From Cytophagaceae bacterium (GTDB lineage: Bacteria > Bacteroidota > Bacteroidia > Cytophagales > Spirosomataceae), in contig JAIXOL010000024.1 in assembly GCA_027486845.1 (NCBI GenBank), forward strand, positions 1-64,000: 64,000 nt of DNA, given 5' to 3'. Shown here piece after piece: positions 25,433 to 33,516 of this stretch; position 1 is the first letter of the stretch; the number at the start of each line of letters is the position of its first letter. The translations under genes and the position numbers were made by a program. Below the pieces are notes generated by a model. That model did not search any database, was not told the DNA's origin, and saw nothing but the letters and a program-made list of their open reading frames with translations.

Positions 25433-28000
25433 TTAAAACGAATATCTAAGCGTTGTTCCGTAAGTACGAGGGTCGCCTAAAATACCTGCATATTGCCCTG
25501 CACTGCCAGGAGCAGCCAATAATTGCTCAAAATAGTTTTTATTGGCAAGGTTTCTACCCCAAACAAAAAGCGAAATACCATTTGATGCTCTGAAACCAAT
25601 TCGACCATTGAGCAGAGAATATCCATCAATATTTAAGAACTGCGAAGGCGATGGACTTGATGAAAATTCCGAACGAAAATAAACATCAACAGCTGCAAAA
25701 TAATTACCTTTCAAACCTAACAGATTTCCTTTAGTACTTGCTTCTGCCCCAAACGAACCCGACCATTTTGAAATACCGGGTAAACGTCCGCCCGAAACAT
25801 CTTTGAAAGCCTGCGTTCCACCGACTTCTTCTAATGGTACTGGTGCGTTGGTGAATGAAACATATTTTCCATCTGTGTAAGCAATTGCCGCATTGAAAGT
25901 AAAATGATTATTTATTCTAATATTTCCATCAACCTCCACTCCTCTTACTCGTACTTTTTCGGCGTTTGCTAAATAGCCTCTATTTACCCCAGGTTCGGGC
26001 GTTTGTACTTGCGTTTGGTAATCTTTTATTTCATCGTTAAAGATCACAACATTTAGAACAGAATTAGCCGATGGCTTTGTTTTTAGTCCAAATTCGATGT
26101 GTTTCACAAATTCAGGCTTTACCTCTGCGAGTTCAACCAATACTCGTCCGCTGGTGGTTGGCAAACCACCAATATTTACACCAACTGGCTTATAACTAAC
26201 CGAATACGTTCCAAAGCTATTGATATTTTTATTGACTTTATACTGCAAAGTCAACTGCCCAGAAAAATTACCCTCTGTTGCTTCGGTATCGAATGCTTGA
26301 TTGGTATAAACTGCGTTTTTAAGAGCAATCAGTGTGGCATCAGTTGTTTGAAGTCCACCGTAGGTTTCTCTTTTATAATTAGCGGTTTTCTTATCATAAT
26401 TATATCTGATACCCGGCAAAACATGTAGTTTTTCAGTGATTGACCAATCTGCTTGGCTGAAAGCTGCTACACTTGTGCTTTGAATTCGGTTAGTTGTACG
26501 AATACCAAAGTTATCAAATAAACCTGCGGTTTTCCATAAAGCACTTGTCGAACTTTGAGCAAAACGCCACTGTGCAGAACCAGCTTCTTCGGTCTGAACG
26601 GGGTCTGAATTCAAATCTTGCCACAAGCCAAATACACCCACAACTCCACTCAATTTTGAAGAGATTTTACCAGAATAACGAATTTCTTGCGATATTTGCT
26701 CATGCACAGAATTACCAGAAGAAATCGTAAAAATAGGTAAGCCCGTGTAGTCACGGTCATTCAACGGAACCCATTTCCAATATCGCCACGCCGAAGTTGA
26801 GGTTAAAGTGCCATTACCAATTTTAATATCAGCATTCAACGAAGCCCCACCCAGTTGATTATCGGCCTTTGATGGCGTATCAAGGTCAACAATTCTCTCA
26901 AATGGACTGCTATAGGGTAATTTATAATTTAGGTCTTTAATAATGGCATCAAACTGACGATAAGCGGCACGTTTGGTTGTTACAACACCCGCCACTGGCC
27001 AACCATATCCAGTTGGTTTTTGGTTCGTAAGATCAGCAATGAAAGTGATTTTAATTTTATCGGTTGGCGTATATAACAACTGACCTCTAATGCCGAGATT
27101 ATTAATATCGTTCATGTTTTGCTGGGTCTTCACGTTATAGAGTAAACCGTCACGTTGCGTACCCGAAAAAGAGATTCTTGCTGCCATTTTTTTGTTTAAT
27201 GGCCCCGAAAGTGAGCCTTTTGCTTGAATATAGCCATAGTTTCCATAACTCAATTCAAAACTGGCAGTTGGGTCGAAACTTGCTTCACGAGTAGTAATAT
27301 TGAAAGCACCAGCAGTTGTGTTTTTGCCAAAAAGTGTTCCTTGTGGCCCACGCAACACCTCAACACGGTCGATGTCAACAAAGTCGAGAGCCGTGGCGGC
27401 TGGGCGAGCGTAATATACGCCATCGACATAAAAACCTACCCCTGGGTCGATACCATCATTGGTTAAACCAAAGGTTGAACCTAAACCTCGTATATTTAAA
27501 GTTGTATTACGTGCGTTTGAAGCATAAAGCTGAACCGTCGGAACGAGTTCTTTCAAACGATTTACGTTGAAAGCACCTGCATCTTCGGCCGCAGCCCCAC
27601 GAATAACCGAAATTGGAATCGGAATATCCTGCACTGCCTCCTGACGGCGACGTGATGAGACCACCACATCAGCCAATTTATTTACATCTTGATTAAGTTT
27701 GATAGTTACTTTGCTTTCATTAATTACGATTTCTCTTTTTATATATCCAACATAAGAAATAATAAGCGTAAAAGGCAATTTTTGACCAGTAATCAGAGCA
27801 AAATCTCCGTTTGCGTCAGTCGTAGCACCATTGGTTGTACCTTTAATTGAAACCGTTGCTCCAATGAGTGCTTCGTTTGTAATCTCATCAATTATTTTGC
27901 CCGAAACCGTAGCATTGATAACTGGCTTATCTTGAGCCGAAACGTAGAAGGGCGAAAGAATTGCCCCTAAAATTAGTATTGAATTTAAAAGTTTTTTCAT
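25433..28000 (-). CDS. TonB-dependent outer-membrane receptor
   Basis: This 855-residue receptor has a signal peptide (1-22, ending VSAQ), then a carboxypeptidase-D regulatory-like beta domain (about 27-113, ATVSGKIIDEITNEALIGA). The plug (about 118-240) contains VEVLRGPQGTLFGKNTTAGA, and a beta-barrel runs to a C-terminal YGTTLRYSF. The sequence is of the siderophore/vitamin-type class (NIRGLGSTFGLTNDGIDPGVGF), and no SusD partner is adjacent, so a glycan receptor is less likely. The ligand cannot be named. It heads a minus-strand run of DUF1684, DUF2490 and Rrf2 genes. Confidence 0.9.
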   Translation of the reverse strand: MKKLLNSILILGAILSPFYVSAQDKPVINATVSGKIIDEITNEALIGATVSIKGTTNGATTDANGDFALITGQKLPFTLIISYVGYIKREIVINESKVTIKLNQDVNKLADVVVSSRRRQEAVQDIPIPISVIRGAAAEDAGAFNVNRLKELVPTVQLYASNARNTTLNIRGLGSTFGLTNDGIDPGVGFYVDGVYYARPAATALDFVDIDRVEVLRGPQGTLFGKNTTAGAFNITTREASFDPTASFELSYGNYGYIQAKGSLSGPLNKKMAARISFSGTQRDGLLYNVKTQQNMNDINNLGIRGQLLYTPTDKIKITFIADLTNQKPTGYGWPVAGVVTTKRAAYRQFDAIIKDLNYKLPYSSPFERIVDLDTPSKADNQLGGASLNADIKIGNGTLTSTSAWRYWKWVPLNDRDYTGLPIFTISSGNSVHEQISQEIRYSGKISSKLSGVVGVFGLWQDLNSDPVQTEEAGSAQWRFAQSSTSALWKTAGLFDNFGIRTTNRIQSTSVAAFSQADWSITEKLHVLPGIRYNYDKKTANYKRETYGGLQTTDATLIALKNAVYTNQAFDTEATEGNFSGQLTLQYKVNKNINSFGTYSVSYKPVGVNIGGLPTTSGRVLVELAEVKPEFVKHIEFGLKTKPSANSVLNVVIFNDEIKDYQTQVQTPEPGVNRGYLANAEKVRVRGVEVDGNIRINNHFTFNAAIAYTDGKYVSFTNAPVPLEEVGGTQAFKDVSGGRLPGISKWSGSFGAEASTKGNLLGLKGNYFAAVDVYFRSEFSSSPSPSQFLNIDGYSLLNGRIGFRASNGISLFVWGRNLANKNYFEQLLAAPGSAGQYAGILGDPRTYGTTLRYSF

Positions 28001-28362: not shown

Positions 28363-28872
28363 TTACCTTATTTTACTGATATGAACTTGCTCATGAAGAG
28401 CATCTTCAAAGAAATGATGAATTGTGAAAGTCTGCTCCGCTCCTACTTTTTGGCCTGTTTGACCTAATATCCATTCGATAATTGCTCCAATCGCTAAAAT
28501 TGGTACTATCCATAAAATTGTCACATCCATCTTTAGACTCATCCTGACTAGCCCAATCATTGTGATAAAAAATATTCCAAGTCCGAAGAAAACATAGCCC
28601 ATCAGAAATATCGCCCAAACACTCGGATGCGGGCCGTACATTCCTCTAATTATCGTTTTTTTGTCTTCGGATTCTTCAAAACTAATGCTCAATTGAGGCG
28701 ACCAATAATGTTGTTGTTCGGGTTTAATGCGAAGCAAACCATGCGTATTGAAAATTTTTCCTTCAACGGGCAGCGATGTTTTTTCCAGTCCGTCAATAAG
28801 TAGTTTTACAATCTCGTTGGTGCTTTTTTCGGAAGTAATCTTAAATTTTGGACGAGTACGAAATGAAGTCAT
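28363..28872 (-). CDS. Conserved membrane protein of unknown function
   Basis: This 169-residue protein has a soluble N-terminal half (about 1-85, with FKITSEKSTNEIVKLLIDGL and GLLRIKPEQQHYWSPQLSIS). Two transmembrane helices follow (about 86-110 and 116-138), then a charged tail. The family is not recognised. It is divergent from the ModE-like gene and may share its promoter region; no functional link is shown. Confidence 0.65.
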   Translation of the reverse strand: MTSFRTRPKFKITSEKSTNEIVKLLIDGLEKTSLPVEGKIFNTHGLLRIKPEQQHYWSPQLSISFEESEDKKTIIRGMYGPHPSVWAIFLMGYVFFGLGIFFITMIGLVRMSLKMDVTILWIVPILAIGAIIEWILGQTGQKVGAEQTFTIHHFFEDALHEQVHISKIR

Positions 28873-29037
28873 TGTATCAAGGGTTTAGAATAGATAATGA
28901 CCAAAACTATCAAATGATTTTTTATCTTAAAATGAGAAAAATCATATTTTAGCGTGAAGATTTGGTGGATTTTAGCAACTTGAGAAGTTTTCATCCGTAG
29001 AATTTTTATCTTTACCGCACCAAAATTGCCAAAACCA

Positions 29038-29406
29038 ATGCCAATCAAAGATTTATTGAAACCCGAAAAGACTTTTCGTATTACTGGGATGCTCAGAATT
29101 GAGAGCGAAAACGACCGTTTTCTTGGTCCTGGTCGACTGGAACTACTAGAAAATATCATTGAAACTGGTTCGATTAGTCAAGCTGCCAAACAAATGGGAA
29201 TGTCGTATAAAAAAGCTTGGGATTTAGTAAATTCAATGAATCAGCATACAATAAAGCCCATCGTCAGCACCCAAACTGGTGGCGAAAAAGGTGGCGGAAC
29301 GATTGTTACCAAAGAAGGAAAACAGCTTATTACAGCATTCAGAAAGCTACACGAAGAATTTCAGCAGTCGTTTGATGAAAAAATAAAAATCTTTTTACAA
29401 TCATAA
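29038..29406 (+). CDS. ModE-like regulator, HTH domain only
   Basis: This 122-residue protein matches the N-terminal winged-helix domain of ModE: RIESENDRFLGPGRLELLEN, then TGSISQAAKQMGMSYKKAWDLV with NSMNQ, and GGEKGGGTIVTKEGKQLITAF. It has no C-terminal MOP/TOBE molybdate-binding domain, so any metal sensing must occur elsewhere or differently. The ATG at 29038 is chosen; an in-frame TTG 12 bases upstream is weaker. It sits next to a TauE/SafE permease and a TonB receptor whose shared promoter holds ModE-like boxes, so control of these genes is the natural inference. Confidence 0.85.
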   Translation: MPIKDLLKPEKTFRITGMLRIESENDRFLGPGRLELLENIIETGSISQAAKQMGMSYKKAWDLVNSMNQHTIKPIVSTQTGGEKGGGTIVTKEGKQLITAFRKLHEEFQQSFDEKIKIFLQS

Positions 29407-29452
29407 AATTTTGCCCATTTGAACGTCCAAATTGGACGTTCAAACAAAATTC
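29406..29452. repeat. Nested palindromic element, copy 1
   Basis: Inner arms TTTGAACGTCCAA (29418-29430) and TTGGACGTTCAAA (29432-29444) surround one base. Outer arms AATTTTG (29407-29413) and CAAAATT (29445-29451) also pair. It lies between convergent genes and may act as a terminator. A second copy with the same flanks but a different, still complementary, stem is at 61630-61675. Confidence 0.8.
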
Positions 29453-29476
29453 GTTAGAATCGGCATTATCCGAAAA

Positions 29477-30208
29477 CTACGTAAAAATCAACTTCAAACA
29501 AGCAATGACCAATCCCACCGCCAAAAGTCTCTTTAAGGTCGGCACATTGAATTTTTGACTACCAAAATAAGAACCAGCCAAGCCACCAATAATTGTAGCC
29601 AAAACCGCCCATTGCATATTTTCGGGGAGACTGATACCTCCTTTTTGTAGCTGACCATAAAGACCTGAAAGTGAGTTAACAAAGATAAAAAGTGCCGAAA
29701 CTGCTGCCGTTTCTTTCAAATTTGCCCATCGCATTAGCAGCATCAAGGGACTAAGAATAATTCCTCCGCCAATGCCAATCATTCCAGAAAGCAAGCCAAT
29801 AAAACCGCCCGAAAGAACCCCCACCAATATTGGAATGGGTCTACTTTTTTCGTCGCTATCAAATTTATAGATTAATCGAACAATTGAAAATAAGATACAT
29901 ACGGCAAGAGTTTTCTTATAAATGGAATCCGAAAGCGTCATTGTTCCTCCCAAAAATGCCATTGGAATACTGGCTAATGCAAATGGTAAAAAGAGCTTTA
30001 AACGAAAATGTCCTGCTCGATAAAAGCCAATAAACGAAAATAAAGAAACAGCCAAATTCATGACCAATGCCGATGATTTCATCATTGCAGGAGCTACGCC
30101 CATAATTGCCATAATGGCCAAATATCCACTTGCTCCACCATGCCCGACCGAAGAGTATAAAAAAGCAACCAAACTTAACAATAATAGAAGTAATAATAGT
30201 GATGTCAT
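29477..30208 (-). CDS. TauE/SafE family inner-membrane permease
   Basis: This 243-residue polytopic protein of the sulfite-exporter TauE/SafE (UPF0721) family has about eight hydrophobic helices. The duplicated family signature is visible as SSVGHGGASGYLAIMAIMG (19-37) and GMIGIGGGIILSPLMLL near 141-157. Members move sulfur-containing and other small oxyanions, in or out. The gene is divergent from a TonB receptor and its promoter overlaps a ModE-like palindrome (30299-30324), which raises the possibility of molybdate or tungstate traffic. Substrate and direction are unproven. Confidence 0.87.
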   Translation of the reverse strand: MTSLLLLLLLLSLVAFLYSSVGHGGASGYLAIMAIMGVAPAMMKSSALVMNLAVSLFSFIGFYRAGHFRLKLFLPFALASIPMAFLGGTMTLSDSIYKKTLAVCILFSIVRLIYKFDSDEKSRPIPILVGVLSGGFIGLLSGMIGIGGGIILSPLMLLMRWANLKETAAVSALFIFVNSLSGLYGQLQKGGISLPENMQWAVLATIIGGLAGSYFGSQKFNVPTLKRLLAVGLVIACLKLIFT

Positions 30209-30298
30209 AGGGTATTTTTAGGATTATTTAGTATTTCTTTTGGTTGTTTAGGCTGATGATTATCTAAAAACTCATTATTTTTTTCATTAACAATTCAT

Positions 30299-30324
30299 TC
30301 GTTATATATTTGCAAATATAACGA
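30299..30324. promoter_or_regulatory. ModE-like box with back-to-back -7 elements
   Basis: Arms TCGTTATAT (30299-30307) and ATATAACGA (30316-30324) are perfectly inverted with an 8-base spacer. This closely resembles the classical ModE operator (CGTTATAT, spacer, ATAACG). Within it, TATATTTG (30305-30312, plus) and its mirror CAAATATA (30313-30320, i.e. TATATTTG on minus) both match the Bacteroidota -7 element TAnnTTTG. A bound regulator would therefore cover the promoters of both the permease and the receptor. The -33 elements are weak. Confidence 0.75.
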
Positions 30325-30359
30325 ACTGTTTTCGTAAAATCCTTAAAAAATCACCGATA

Positions 30360-32936
30360 ATGCCAAAAAAAATACTTTTTTATGCCTATCGTTATATTTT
30401 ATTATATATAACGATTTTTGAAACAGTATTTCCACAAATAAGCCAAGCTCAGGAAGCTGATACACTAAAATCACAAATCTTGAATGAAGTTGTAATTTCA
30501 GCTTCAAGGGTCAAAGAAAATTATCTTAAATCGGCAACAAGTATTGAATTGTTGACATTGAAACAAATGCAGCAAAGTGCAGCATTGAGTTATTTTGATG
30601 CCATCGAAAACCTAAAAGGTGTGCAATTAATTACGCCGAGTTTGGGATTTAGGGTCTATAATGCTCGTGGATTTACGAACACAACCAATGTGCGGTTTGT
30701 ACAACTCGTTGACGGCATTGATAACCAAGCCCCGCATATTGGTTCTCCGATTGCTTCGGGAATAGGGCCAACTGACCTTGATATTCGCCAAGTTGAGATG
30801 ATTCCAGGAGTTGCTTCGGCACTATACGGAATGAATTCTTTGAATGGCTTGGTAAATTTACTTACACTCAATCCATTTGAATCGGAAGGCTTTAGATTTC
30901 AGCAAAAAACTGGCGTAAATCACTTATCGAGTCCAACAATTGACCCAAAAATATTCTCAGAAACGAGTTTACGTTATGCCAAGAAACTCAGTAAAAAATG
31001 GGCATTTAAGGTCAATTTTGGGTATCAGAAAGGTTATGATTGGATTGCTAACTCAACGCTTGACCTTAATCCTATGGCTAATACTTCGGTGAATTTACTC
31101 GGAAAAGATAATATCGGAGCTGACTATGTAAACTCTTACGGCAATGAATCATCGAACCGAAGAACGCTTACTTTCGGTGGAAAAAAGTATGTAGTTGCTC
31201 GAACTGGCTATTTTGAAGAAGAAGTAACCTACTATTCTATCAATAATCTCAAAGCTGATTTTTCTTTAAACTATCGCTTCAAGCCTCAGCATGAAATTAC
31301 TTATAGTTTCAAAATAGCTCAGCTCGATAATGTTTATCAACGCACCAACCGTTTTCGCCTGAATGATTATCGTTTATCTCAAAATGCGATAACTTACCAA
31401 AGTCCAAGTACGCAAATTAGGGCGTATTTGACAACCGAAAATACAGGAAAATCTTATAATATTCGTTCTATGGCCGAAAATATCGACCGCAGTTTTAAGT
31501 CGGATAATATTTGGTTTACTGATTTTACAAATGAATATAATGCCCAAAATAAAGCTGGCAAAAGCGTGCTTGATGCCCTAAATTTGGCCAGAACGCAAGC
31601 AGATAAAAGTCGTCCACAACCAAATACGCCAACTTTTGATGACTTGCTTACAAAATTAGGTGACATCAATAATTGGGATATTGGGGCGGCTTTACGAGTG
31701 CAATCTTATATGCTTCATACCGAAGGCCTCACTGATTTGAGTAAAAAGCTTTCAACCACACTTCAAAAGACAGGTTTTGGTTTATTGGCGGGTTTCGATT
31801 ACCGAAATTATATTGTAGTGCCCGATGGAAATTATTTCATCAATCCAAAAGAGAGCGGCAAAAATATCAATTATTGGAAAGCGGGTGGTTTTGTGCAAGG
31901 AAGTAAAACTTTTTTCGATGAAAAACTTAAATTTTTACTAACGCTTAGAGCTGACAAAAACCAATATTTCGATTTACGTTTTAATCCACGAACGTCGTTA
32001 GTTTATTCACACAACGAAAACAATCATTTCCGACTTTCTTATCAAAATGGCTATCGTTTTCCGAGTTTGTTTGAGGCTTTTTCAAACATTAATAGTGGTG
32101 GAGTAAAGCGGGTGGGTGGCTTACCGATAATGTCGCAAGGTATTTTTGAAAATTCATACCTACGAAAAACCATTGATGATTTCACAGCGGCAGTGAACCA
32201 AGATATAAATATCAATAAACTCACTCAAAACGAAGCCATCATAAAAAACAAAAATCTTCTCCGCAAAAACGATTATACTTACTTGAAACCAGAGTATGTT
32301 AATAGTTTTGAGATTGGCTACAAAGGTTATCCTGTGGGCAAAAAACTTTTTGTCGATGCTGATTTCTATTATAATGTTTACCGAAATTTCATGGCTCAAA
32401 TTGAGGCCAATGTACCACTCGGTACGAATGCCGATTCGCTGGAATTTTACATGTATGACCGCAACAAACAAGCTCGTTATCGTCTTTGGACAAACTCCAA
32501 AACTATTGTAAGAAACTATGGTGCAAGTATAGAATTGAACTATAATTTCTATAAAAATTTCTCGCTTAACGTAAATACTTCTTTCGCAAAACTCCGAAAT
32601 ACCGCCAATAATGATGATTTTGAAGAAGCATTCAATACTCCACGATGGATTATGAATATCGGTCTTGGCAATGCAAAACTTACAAAAAACATTGGTTTTG
32701 GCATAAACTATAAATATCAAGAAGGATTTCTGTGGCAGTCGGCACTGGCAACGGGCAATGTGCCAGCCATTCATAATATTGATGCACAATTTACATATTA
32801 TGCCCGAAAACAAGGTTTACAATTCAAAATGGCAGGAACAAATATTTTGAATCGCCCTTACGTAAGTTTCATTGCTGGGCCAACGGTCGGAGCATTTTAT
32901 TATTTGACGATTACGGCAGATTTGGGGAAGAAATGA
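30360..32936 (+). CDS. TonB-dependent receptor under a ModE-like box
   Basis: This 858-residue outer-membrane receptor has an N-terminal export signal (about 1-30, ending ISQAQ). A TonB-box-like segment follows (LNEVVISASRV, 41-51), then the plug domain (VQLVDGIDNQAPHIG and VEMIPGVASALYGMNSLNGL) and a large barrel. Unlike the other receptors here it has no carboxypeptidase-like N-terminal domain. Two ModE-like palindromes lie at 30299-30324 and 30389-30414; the second falls inside its signal-peptide codons. This suggests uptake of a molybdenum- or tungsten-containing ligand, but homologues for other substrates exist and the ligand is unproven. Confidence 0.88.
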   Translation: MPKKILFYAYRYILLYITIFETVFPQISQAQEADTLKSQILNEVVISASRVKENYLKSATSIELLTLKQMQQSAALSYFDAIENLKGVQLITPSLGFRVYNARGFTNTTNVRFVQLVDGIDNQAPHIGSPIASGIGPTDLDIRQVEMIPGVASALYGMNSLNGLVNLLTLNPFESEGFRFQQKTGVNHLSSPTIDPKIFSETSLRYAKKLSKKWAFKVNFGYQKGYDWIANSTLDLNPMANTSVNLLGKDNIGADYVNSYGNESSNRRTLTFGGKKYVVARTGYFEEEVTYYSINNLKADFSLNYRFKPQHEITYSFKIAQLDNVYQRTNRFRLNDYRLSQNAITYQSPSTQIRAYLTTENTGKSYNIRSMAENIDRSFKSDNIWFTDFTNEYNAQNKAGKSVLDALNLARTQADKSRPQPNTPTFDDLLTKLGDINNWDIGAALRVQSYMLHTEGLTDLSKKLSTTLQKTGFGLLAGFDYRNYIVVPDGNYFINPKESGKNINYWKAGGFVQGSKTFFDEKLKFLLTLRADKNQYFDLRFNPRTSLVYSHNENNHFRLSYQNGYRFPSLFEAFSNINSGGVKRVGGLPIMSQGIFENSYLRKTIDDFTAAVNQDININKLTQNEAIIKNKNLLRKNDYTYLKPEYVNSFEIGYKGYPVGKKLFVDADFYYNVYRNFMAQIEANVPLGTNADSLEFYMYDRNKQARYRLWTNSKTIVRNYGASIELNYNFYKNFSLNVNTSFAKLRNTANNDDFEEAFNTPRWIMNIGLGNAKLTKNIGFGINYKYQEGFLWQSALATGNVPAIHNIDAQFTYYARKQGLQFKMAGTNILNRPYVSFIAGPTVGAFYYLTITADLGKK
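30389..30414. promoter_or_regulatory. Second ModE-like box, inside the receptor coding region
   Basis: TCGTTATAT (30389-30397) and ATATAACGA (30406-30414) have exactly the same arms and 8-base spacing as the upstream box, 90 bases away. They encode residues of the signal peptide (YRYILLYITIF). Two identical operators about 8.5 helical turns apart could support cooperative binding or looping. Confidence 0.7.
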
Positions 32937-32981
32937 TTTTTATTGGATTGTAGGAGTATTTCATATAAATTACCTAATTTC

Positions 32982-33019
32982 GTTCATAGCAACGGGTTTG
33001 CAAACCCGTTGCTATGAAC
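32982..33019. repeat. REP-type palindrome, upstream of the RAYT gene
   Basis: A perfect 38-bp palindrome (19-bp arms, no loop) has the central core CGGGTTTGCAAACCCG. The arms carry CATAGCAA on the left. It pairs as a set with the palindrome at 33471-33516. Confidence 0.9.
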
Positions 33020-33036
33020 AAAAATTATTTATAAAA

Positions 33037-33482
33037 ATGGCATCGCAATCTTACCTTTCTTTATGGTATCATTTGGTTTGGAGTACCAAAAATCGTGAAC
33101 CATTTATTGATAAAAGTTGGAAATGGCAACTATACGACTACATCAGAGAATTCTGTAAACAAAAAAATATCATCTTGATTTTATTAATGGCACAGAAGAC
33201 CATATACATCTCTTGATTAGTCCTAAGCCAGTTTTTTCGTTGAGTAATGTAGTAAGAAATATCAAACGAGATAGTTATTATTGGGTAAAGGAACAAAATC
33301 TTTGTTCAACACACTTTAGTTGGCAAAATGGTTACGGTGCTTTTAATGTAAGTAATTCTATGCTTACTCAAGTAAGAAATTATATGAAAAATCAAGAAGA
33401 ACATCAAAGAAAAATGAATTTTGAAGAGGAAATGTTATTTTTTGAAAAACAAATATTTTCTCCAAATCATATTAATCCATAG
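33037..33482 (+). pseudogene. REP-associated Y1 transposase (RAYT, IS200/IS605-like), frameshifted
   Basis: The first part (MASQSYLSLWYHLVWSTKNR) and the second part (GTEDHIHLLISPKPVFSLSNV, FSWQNGYGAFNVSNSML, NQEEHQRKMNFEEEM) together make a complete Y1 transposase. The HIH metal-binding motif is split off by a -1 shift near 33180-33190: a run of four T's where five would restore one frame. Residues after the shift in the first frame are spurious. The gene lies between two perfect palindromes and its stop codon is inside the second one. This arrangement is typical of RAYT genes, which nick REP hairpins. As read, the gene is broken unless ribosomes slip or the base call is wrong. Confidence 0.85.
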
Positions 33483-33516
33483 CGTCGGGTTTGCAAACCC
33501 GACGCTATGGATTAAT
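33471..33516. repeat. REP-type palindrome overlapping the transposase stop
   Basis: A perfect 46-bp palindrome (23-bp arms) has the same core CGGGTTTGCAAACCCG as the copy at 32982, but with GTC/GAC in place of AAC/GTT next to it, changed on both arms so pairing is kept. The TAG of the transposase (33480-33482) is within it. Confidence 0.9.

Follow-up and report, generated by a model that had tools for sequence, protein, structure and literature searches.

What do a TonB-dependent receptor and a TauE/SafE (TSUP) permease take up when their divergent genes lie beside that of a ModE-type regulator? The question is raised by one locus of the window, as we call the whole stretch of 64,000 nucleotides analysed here (contig JAIXOL010000024.1, from a Cytophagaceae bacterium). 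A preliminary description of this DNA had noticed the adjacency of the three genes, which gene calls and domain matches bear out, and had linked them to molybdenum through the regulator and an operator-like palindrome. The genes, the boxes and their conservation, the co-occurrence with ModE, the setting among molybdenum-cofactor genes and the finding that TauE and ModB (the channel of the ModABC importer) exclude each other in the genomes searched were obtained by computation, and on this basis the locus is probably a molybdenum-acquisition module under a ModE-type repressor, in which a TSUP carrier replaces ModABC and the TonB receptor serves the outer membrane. The link to molybdenum now extends beyond the operator, to the presence of ModE in all box genomes, molybdenum genes near receptors, and the context of the permease together with its exclusion of ModB.

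The Box and ModE at Receptor Orthologues

The core of the ModE-type box, TCGTTATAT-N8-ATATAACGA, occurs in two exact copies in the window, 90 bases apart (Table 1), whereas 100 shuffled versions of the window gave a mean of 0.02 matches at three mismatches or fewer. No other exact core is present anywhere in the 5.36-Mb genome, and the next best has two mismatches. Measured against the E. coli ModE consensus, as given in the available part of PMC545781, box 1 has three mismatches of 20 and box 2 one. An operator of the E. coli type therefore stands near a ModE-type gene and its proposed targets. The preliminary description had placed it in the divergent intergenic region, which holds for box 1; box 2 lies inside the receptor open reading frame (ORF). 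Both boxes are kept with no or one mismatch in all four Emticicia relatives (L007-L010; G, L, g and f numbers are our labels for genomes, loci, genera and families).

The receptor was searched in 241 genomes of the order (E <= 1e-60, up to three candidates scored per genome, among the matches listed), which gave at least 43 further loci at 49-61 percent identity, with paralogues at 44 percent and below. One receptor fragment at a contig end (G513:C35, 56 percent identity) was dropped. The orthologue set thus comprised 49 loci (43 from the order search, the window and five relatives) and the comparison set 20 paralogues. Near the receptor start, a box at no more than four mismatches of 18 was found at 33 of the 49 orthologue loci, against two for the reversed control (L128 and L149) and none of the 20 paralogues, the best of which had five mismatches. 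The conservation upstream of receptor orthologues that the preliminary description led one to expect is therefore present. Six more loci (L143, L150, L152, L154, L158 and L159) carry a box with one to three mismatches between ModE and the receptor operon. A recount over a narrower interval, with a somewhat different set of 49 orthologues, placed the box at 28/49 receptors versus 4/304 other ORFs at those loci; in three of these four cases it is the receptor's own box, approached from the opposite side, and in the fourth a box ahead of moaA (L160).

The same pattern was observed per genome, with an equal, wider look for both groups and values entered by hand. A box at four mismatches or fewer was found in 34 of the 37 genomes with ModE (33 without G398) and in 37/37 at five or fewer, and in none of the four that have a receptor orthologue without ModE (G456, G482, G536 and G613). 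ModE itself (E <= 1e-12) occurs in 37/41 genomes with a receptor orthologue versus 17/200 without, weaker matches (G421, G578 and G612) being left out of the first count. In the fetched stretches it was seen at 29/49 orthologue and 0/20 paralogue loci, the paralogue stretches being shorter (flanks of 3 kb versus about 6.5 kb). Regulator and receptor are often neighbours, and adjacency of all three genes was seen only in the window and three Emticicia records. Among 45 clustered loci, the molybdenum genes near the receptor were MoaA (6), MoeB-type (5), MoaE (3) and xanthine-dehydrogenase-type (4).

Two kinds of weaker box were also seen near receptors. At five loci (L123, L125, L126, L127 and L151) a second box with four to five mismatches lies at the receptor promoter, 26-27 bases from the first in four of them. 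Boxes of the same weakness stand 5' of MoaA-labelled ORFs at L160:3474-4493, L158:10504-11523 and L152:11283-12338, and may be due to chance or may mark further regulon members.

The Box across the Phylum

In a survey of 395 genomes of the phylum, with ModE called by TIGR00637 at E <= 0.001, the exact core box was present in 16 and the reversed pattern in none among the rows listed. ModE was present in 104 genomes, including all 16 with the box (Fisher 2e-10). Family f18 accounts for ten of the 16, and ModE is found in 77 of its 86 genomes (counted by eye); with f18 excluded, ModE accompanies the box in 6/6 genomes, versus 27/309 overall (3e-7).

In two f7 genomes (L028 and L029) the box precedes moeA-modE-tauE-mobA, followed by moeB-type, moaE, moaC and moaA genes, and their TauE is 47-51 percent identical to that of the window. 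Several f7 genomes have molybdenum-cofactor clusters with a TauE gene, and ModE is also present in L028, L029 and L080. Family f7 is, at a guess, Flavobacteriaceae. PMC12758843 (eLife 2026) lists the cofactor genes of a Flavobacterium IR1 molybdenum-cofactor operon; its main text contains no mention of TauE, sulfite exporter or permease, and names the ModE protein nowhere but in the title of a reference.

Box loci of f18 and G005, 11 in all, show another arrangement. In L034, L040 and L041 the exact box is directly followed by a TonB receptor of a different clade; in L037 a small ORF comes between the two, and in L036 a tetrapyrrole methylase. This implies that the link between receptor and ModE may have arisen more than once. 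In L035 the box is followed by a quinolinate-phosphoribosyltransferase-type gene and by ModA, ModB and ATPase-type genes, L038 looks similar, and in the remaining four loci neither the receptor nor the mod pattern is clear. Some loci with other-clade receptors lie near mod or nif-like genes. Two large proteins encoded next to boxes, at L032 and L039, had no Pfam match and were not counted as TonB receptors.

Permease and ModABC

The strongest point of the molybdenum reading is the exclusion between the permease and ModB. It was examined in 57 genomes, namely 23 of the 27 non-f18 genomes with ModE and 34 more with a receptor orthologue; four ModE genomes of other classes, all of f18 and 17 genomes of the order that have ModE but lack the receptor were left out. 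With TauE called at E <= 1e-20 (weaker TauE-family genes, not listed, may exist) and ModB at its own cut-off, TauE occurred in 24 genomes, ModB in 21, both in none and neither in 12. Outside genus g6, exactly one of the two was found in 38/38 genomes. Both states occur within g3 (two TauE, four ModB), within g15 (five and two) and between genera of f59, so that the exclusion does not go back to one old split.

The neighbourhoods of the carriers point in the same direction. TauE lies within or next to molybdenum-cofactor clusters in 12 of its 24 genomes (L028, L029, L080, L148 and L191-L198; f2, f7 and f59), and in three g2 genomes (L186, L187 and L189) a lone TauE has its own box, with three mismatches, just upstream. 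In g3 genomes with ModABC, a box with two to three mismatches marks the beginning of modA, or of an operon of a secreted protein and modABC, in three of four cases (L201, L203 and L206, not L202).

In agreement with the earlier remark that ModABC is missing from the window, the whole genome gave no ModB match at E <= 0.001, in a search that did not cover SulP-type and other importers. The same genome has MoaA, four xanthine-dehydrogenase-type frames (eight partial matches), two SUOX-fold (Oxidored_molyb) genes and two matches to PF00384, a domain that also occurs in proteins unrelated to molybdenum. With MoaA and molybdoenzyme matches and no ModB, this bacterium very likely needs molybdenum and has no standard importer.

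The permease matches PF01925 over residues 8-240, near its whole length, and thus belongs to the TSUP family. Its predicted model is all-helical (mean pLDDT 86.7); no related solved sequence was found, nor a fold match at E <= 0.001, the best overall similarity among the matches listed being to BacA (5oon; TM 0.66 on the query). Most of the 24 TauE sequences of this subfamily carry SVGHGGASGY near the N-terminus.

Regulator and Proposed Mechanism

The regulator matches TIGR00637 (E 6.3e-27, 93.6 bits) and ModE structures of the PDB (E 1e-19 to 3e-18) and has the winged helix, with a recognition helix region, GSISQAAKQMGMSYKKAWDLVNSMNQ, that resembles GSISQGAKDAGISYKSAWDAINEMNQ of E. coli ModE. 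It corresponds to the DNA-binding domain of ModE rather than to the complete protein.

The motif TAnnTTTG, presumably the -7 element of Bacteroidota promoters, occurs within box 1 on both strands (Table 1). Where the best box has no more than four mismatches, it lies inside the box on the receptor strand at 16 of 34 orthologue loci, versus 1.2 expected when the spacer letters are shuffled; the other strand has it in 3/34, and f18 boxes in 0/10 on either strand. A scan for sigma-70-type promoters gave 10 weak sites versus 4.7 expected, none telling. A repressor bound to a box of this kind would mask the region where the gene starts, and the arrangement argues for repression when molybdenum is plentiful.

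That the ModE-type protein binds DNA and acts as a repressor, not an activator, that transport is inward, what is carried and the step of metal sensing are inferred, the last because the protein has no molybdate-binding domain. As we picture it, with plentiful molybdenum the small ModE protein would sit on the box that overlaps the candidate elements of both divergent promoters, and receptor and permease would be off; with scarce molybdenum the repression would be lifted. The receptor would then import molybdate or, more likely, a molybdenum chelate across the outer membrane with energy from TonB, and the TauE/SafE protein would carry molybdate across the inner membrane in place of ModABC, towards molybdenum-cofactor synthesis.

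A broader proposal can be put forward tentatively. Many Bacteroidota may possess such a two-membrane molybdenum route, with a chelate-binding TonB receptor and, in some lineages, a small secreted helper of molybdopterin fold; the TSUP carrier may have been swapped with ModABC several times, and ModE may have lost its metal-sensing domain and learn the molybdenum status from another molecule.

Receptor Ligand and Alternative Readings

The predicted model of the receptor (mean pLDDT 83.1) is a plug and barrel with helical insertions, at about residues 368-434 and 602-633, in which invariant residues lie. Its nearest solved folds are Cir, BtuB and PfeA, at 12-14 percent identity, which does not settle the ligand. 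The involvement of a TonB receptor points to a chelated ligand or to scavenging from a very dilute supply. A small protein of Oxidored_molyb fold (PF00174), about 160-200 amino acids long with a signal-peptide-like start, recurs in several genomes beside the receptor, ModE or ModABC (for instance L154:9224-9757, L034:5300-5881, L078:13056-13643 and relatives) and is a candidate periplasmic partner; the two PF00174 matches of the bacterium's own genome are a 410-amino-acid open frame and a 230-amino-acid ORF rather than this small secreted protein.

Among the alternatives, the one that survives best, and which we still regard as rather unlikely, is that the receptor, under ModE, imports a different cargo from molybdenum; this might be an iron siderophore, a precursor of pterin or cofactor, or a sulfur compound that molybdoenzymes need. 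Free molybdate can pass porins, so that a TonB receptor is not obviously needed for it, the solved structures closest in fold belong to receptors of siderophores, colicin and cobalamin, and the small secreted protein mentioned above accompanies some orthologues. Against this, the receptor has its box and its gene neighbourhood in common with ModE, and partly with molybdenum-cofactor genes, and to our knowledge receptors for iron do not as a rule go with ModE.

It is unlikely that the permease is a carrier of sulfite or another sulfur oxyanion, travelling with molybdenum-cofactor genes because molybdoenzymes make or use such ions, with molybdate entering otherwise. The Pfam family name and the two SUOX-fold genes of the own genome speak for such a carrier; its position among cofactor biosynthesis genes in half of the TauE genomes speaks against it, as does the strict alternation with ModB outside g6, which a sulfite exporter would not explain.

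Slightly less probable again is tungsten, instead of or besides molybdenum. Molybdate and tungstate are often not told apart by ModE proteins or by molybdate carriers, but the cofactor enzymes of the own genome match the xanthine dehydrogenase and SUOX families, which we take to be typical of molybdenum. Also on the side of tungsten, metal sensing by lone ModE-type domains is described as unclear in the available part of PMC545781. A chance origin of the palindromic boxes, or their use by a different regulator, as the AT-rich region and the simple core might suggest, is very improbable in view of the expectation of 0.02, the reversed and paralogue controls and the lack of boxes where ModE is absent.

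Several observations weigh against the molybdenum-acquisition module itself. As to the regulator, its score of 93.6 bits just misses the curated TIGR00637 cut-off of 98.5, and no molybdate-binding (MOP/TOBE) domain was found in its 126 amino acids (Pfam, E <= 0.001). As to the receptor, four genomes retain it without ModE, the box of L149 (genome G398) is no better than its own reversed control, and second receptor copies (L131, L156 and L157, in genomes G371, G415 and G428) have no box. In genus g15 the orthologue adjoins ModE at L078, L083, L086 and L089 and yet has no box; the operator of these loci may have diverged. Within f18 alone the link between box and ModE is not significant (0.31), a test that is uninformative because nearly all f18 genomes have ModE, and the kinship of the genomes and the chosen set of 57 mean that the p-values overstate independence.

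Other such points concern the permease. Gene adjacency beyond regulator and receptor is as restricted as described above, TauE elsewhere usually occupying a locus separate from the receptor. All 12 genomes with neither carrier are of g6 and have receptor and ModE (G072, G166, G387, G458, G496, G508, G532, G597, G601, G604, G611 and G614). The TauE of G513 is a fragment at a contig end, that of G182 is only 39 percent identical, and seven TauE genes have no visible molybdenum context. A box at four mismatches or fewer precedes only 7/24 TauE genes or operon heads and only 4/20 fetched modABC loci (L218 with four mismatches), and the reversed control at this level was met anywhere in 2/20 ModB and 2/19 TauE stretches. 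In the own genome, the importers sought were limited to ModB. A 571-amino-acid neighbour (c51) of ModE in three carrier-less genomes was considered as a third permease and proved to be a DnaB helicase.

Relation to Known Systems

ModE control of molybdate uptake is textbook knowledge, and a 2003 study by Studholme and Pau is said to report a ModE element from Proteobacteria, Archaea and green sulphur bacteria; some of the present sites may be covered there. Relative to this control, what appears new is the proposed place of a TonB receptor in the regulon and the proposed replacement of ModABC by a TauE/SafE carrier, the link to molybdenum being well supported. Among the papers listed in a search of the open-access literature (titles and abstract starts), none was recognised as a report of either, in keeping with the earlier impression that the arrangement is little described.

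The named members of the TauE/SafE family handle sulfite or sulfonates; the window permease matches the Pfam model of that family almost end to end, and unlike those members its subfamily sits with molybdenum-cofactor genes in half its genomes. With ModABC it would share the inner-membrane step, the two never co-occurring in the 57 genomes, and it differs in being of an unrelated family and in working as one carrier, with neither ATPase nor binding protein. The receptor resembles BtuB, Cir and PfeA, receptors of metal chelates or cobalamin, in its plug and barrel and in its best structural matches, but with its low identity and helical insertions it forms a clade of its own. Catechol siderophores of Azotobacter bind molybdate and would be a precedent for a molybdenum chelate at a TonB receptor.

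In the E. coli regulon, where molybdenum-bound ModE represses modABC, the regulator has a winged helix with a similar recognition helix and the consensus is ATCGNTATATA-N6-TATATANCGAT (PMC545781, available part); the window regulator, in contrast, has no molybdate-binding domain, no ModB was found at the above threshold, and the proposed targets are the TonB receptor and the TauE permease. ModE proteins that likewise consist of the DNA-binding domain alone are described, in the available part of PMC545781, for D. psychrophila and two Desulfovibrio species, with a sensing mechanism called unclear, the same gap as here. Their box, in the same part of PMC545781, differs for Desulfovibrio (CGGTCACG-N14-CGTGACCG) and is placed before modABC.

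If the proposed module is real, it would add an outer-membrane step to bacterial molybdenum uptake, give a molybdate function to one branch of the TauE/SafE family, and explain the metal supply of Bacteroidota that have molybdoenzymes but no ModABC.

Organization of the Locus

The features of the locus are listed in Table 1. The receptor has Plug and barrel domains (PF07715/PF00593) and so belongs to the plug and beta-barrel receptors. Copies of its gene with 89-94 percent identity are present in four records of Emticicia, a genus placed in Cytophagales, Bacteroidota; ModE and TauE stand alongside the receptor in the same arrangement in three of these relatives, the fourth (L008) being a short record.

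Table 1. Coordinates of genes and sequence elements of the locus (positions in the window)
Feature	Position	Strand	Remarks
ModE-type DNA-binding protein, 126 amino acids from TTG	29026-29406	+	alternative ATG start 29038; winged helix domain only (profile search and PDB matches 2ijl, 1b9m, 1o7l)
TauE/SafE (TSUP) permease, 243 amino acids; proposed inner-membrane molybdate importer	29477-30208	-	PF01925 E 2.5e-32
ModE-type box 1, exact palindrome	30299-30324		between divergent permease and receptor genes
TAnnTTTG, candidate -7 element of receptor	30305-30312	+	within box 1
TAnnTTTG, candidate -7 element of permease gene	30313-30320	-	within box 1
TonB-dependent receptor, 858 amino acids; proposed outer-membrane receptor for molybdate or molybdenum chelate	30360-32936	+	
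ModE-type box 2, exact palindrome	30389-30414		inside first 20 codons (signal peptide region) of receptor ORF

For control by a riboswitch, no Rfam match at the gathering score was found in 28800-33500. A second TonB receptor, with a carboxypeptidase-regulatory domain, is encoded at 25433-28000 on the minus strand, with no nearby box at three mismatches or fewer. On the other side, at 32985-33500, a palindrome, CAACGGGTTTGCAAACCCGTTG, is followed by an ORF that covers no more than the second part (positions 56-121) of the IS200-like transposase domain Y1_Tnp and is probably a remnant.

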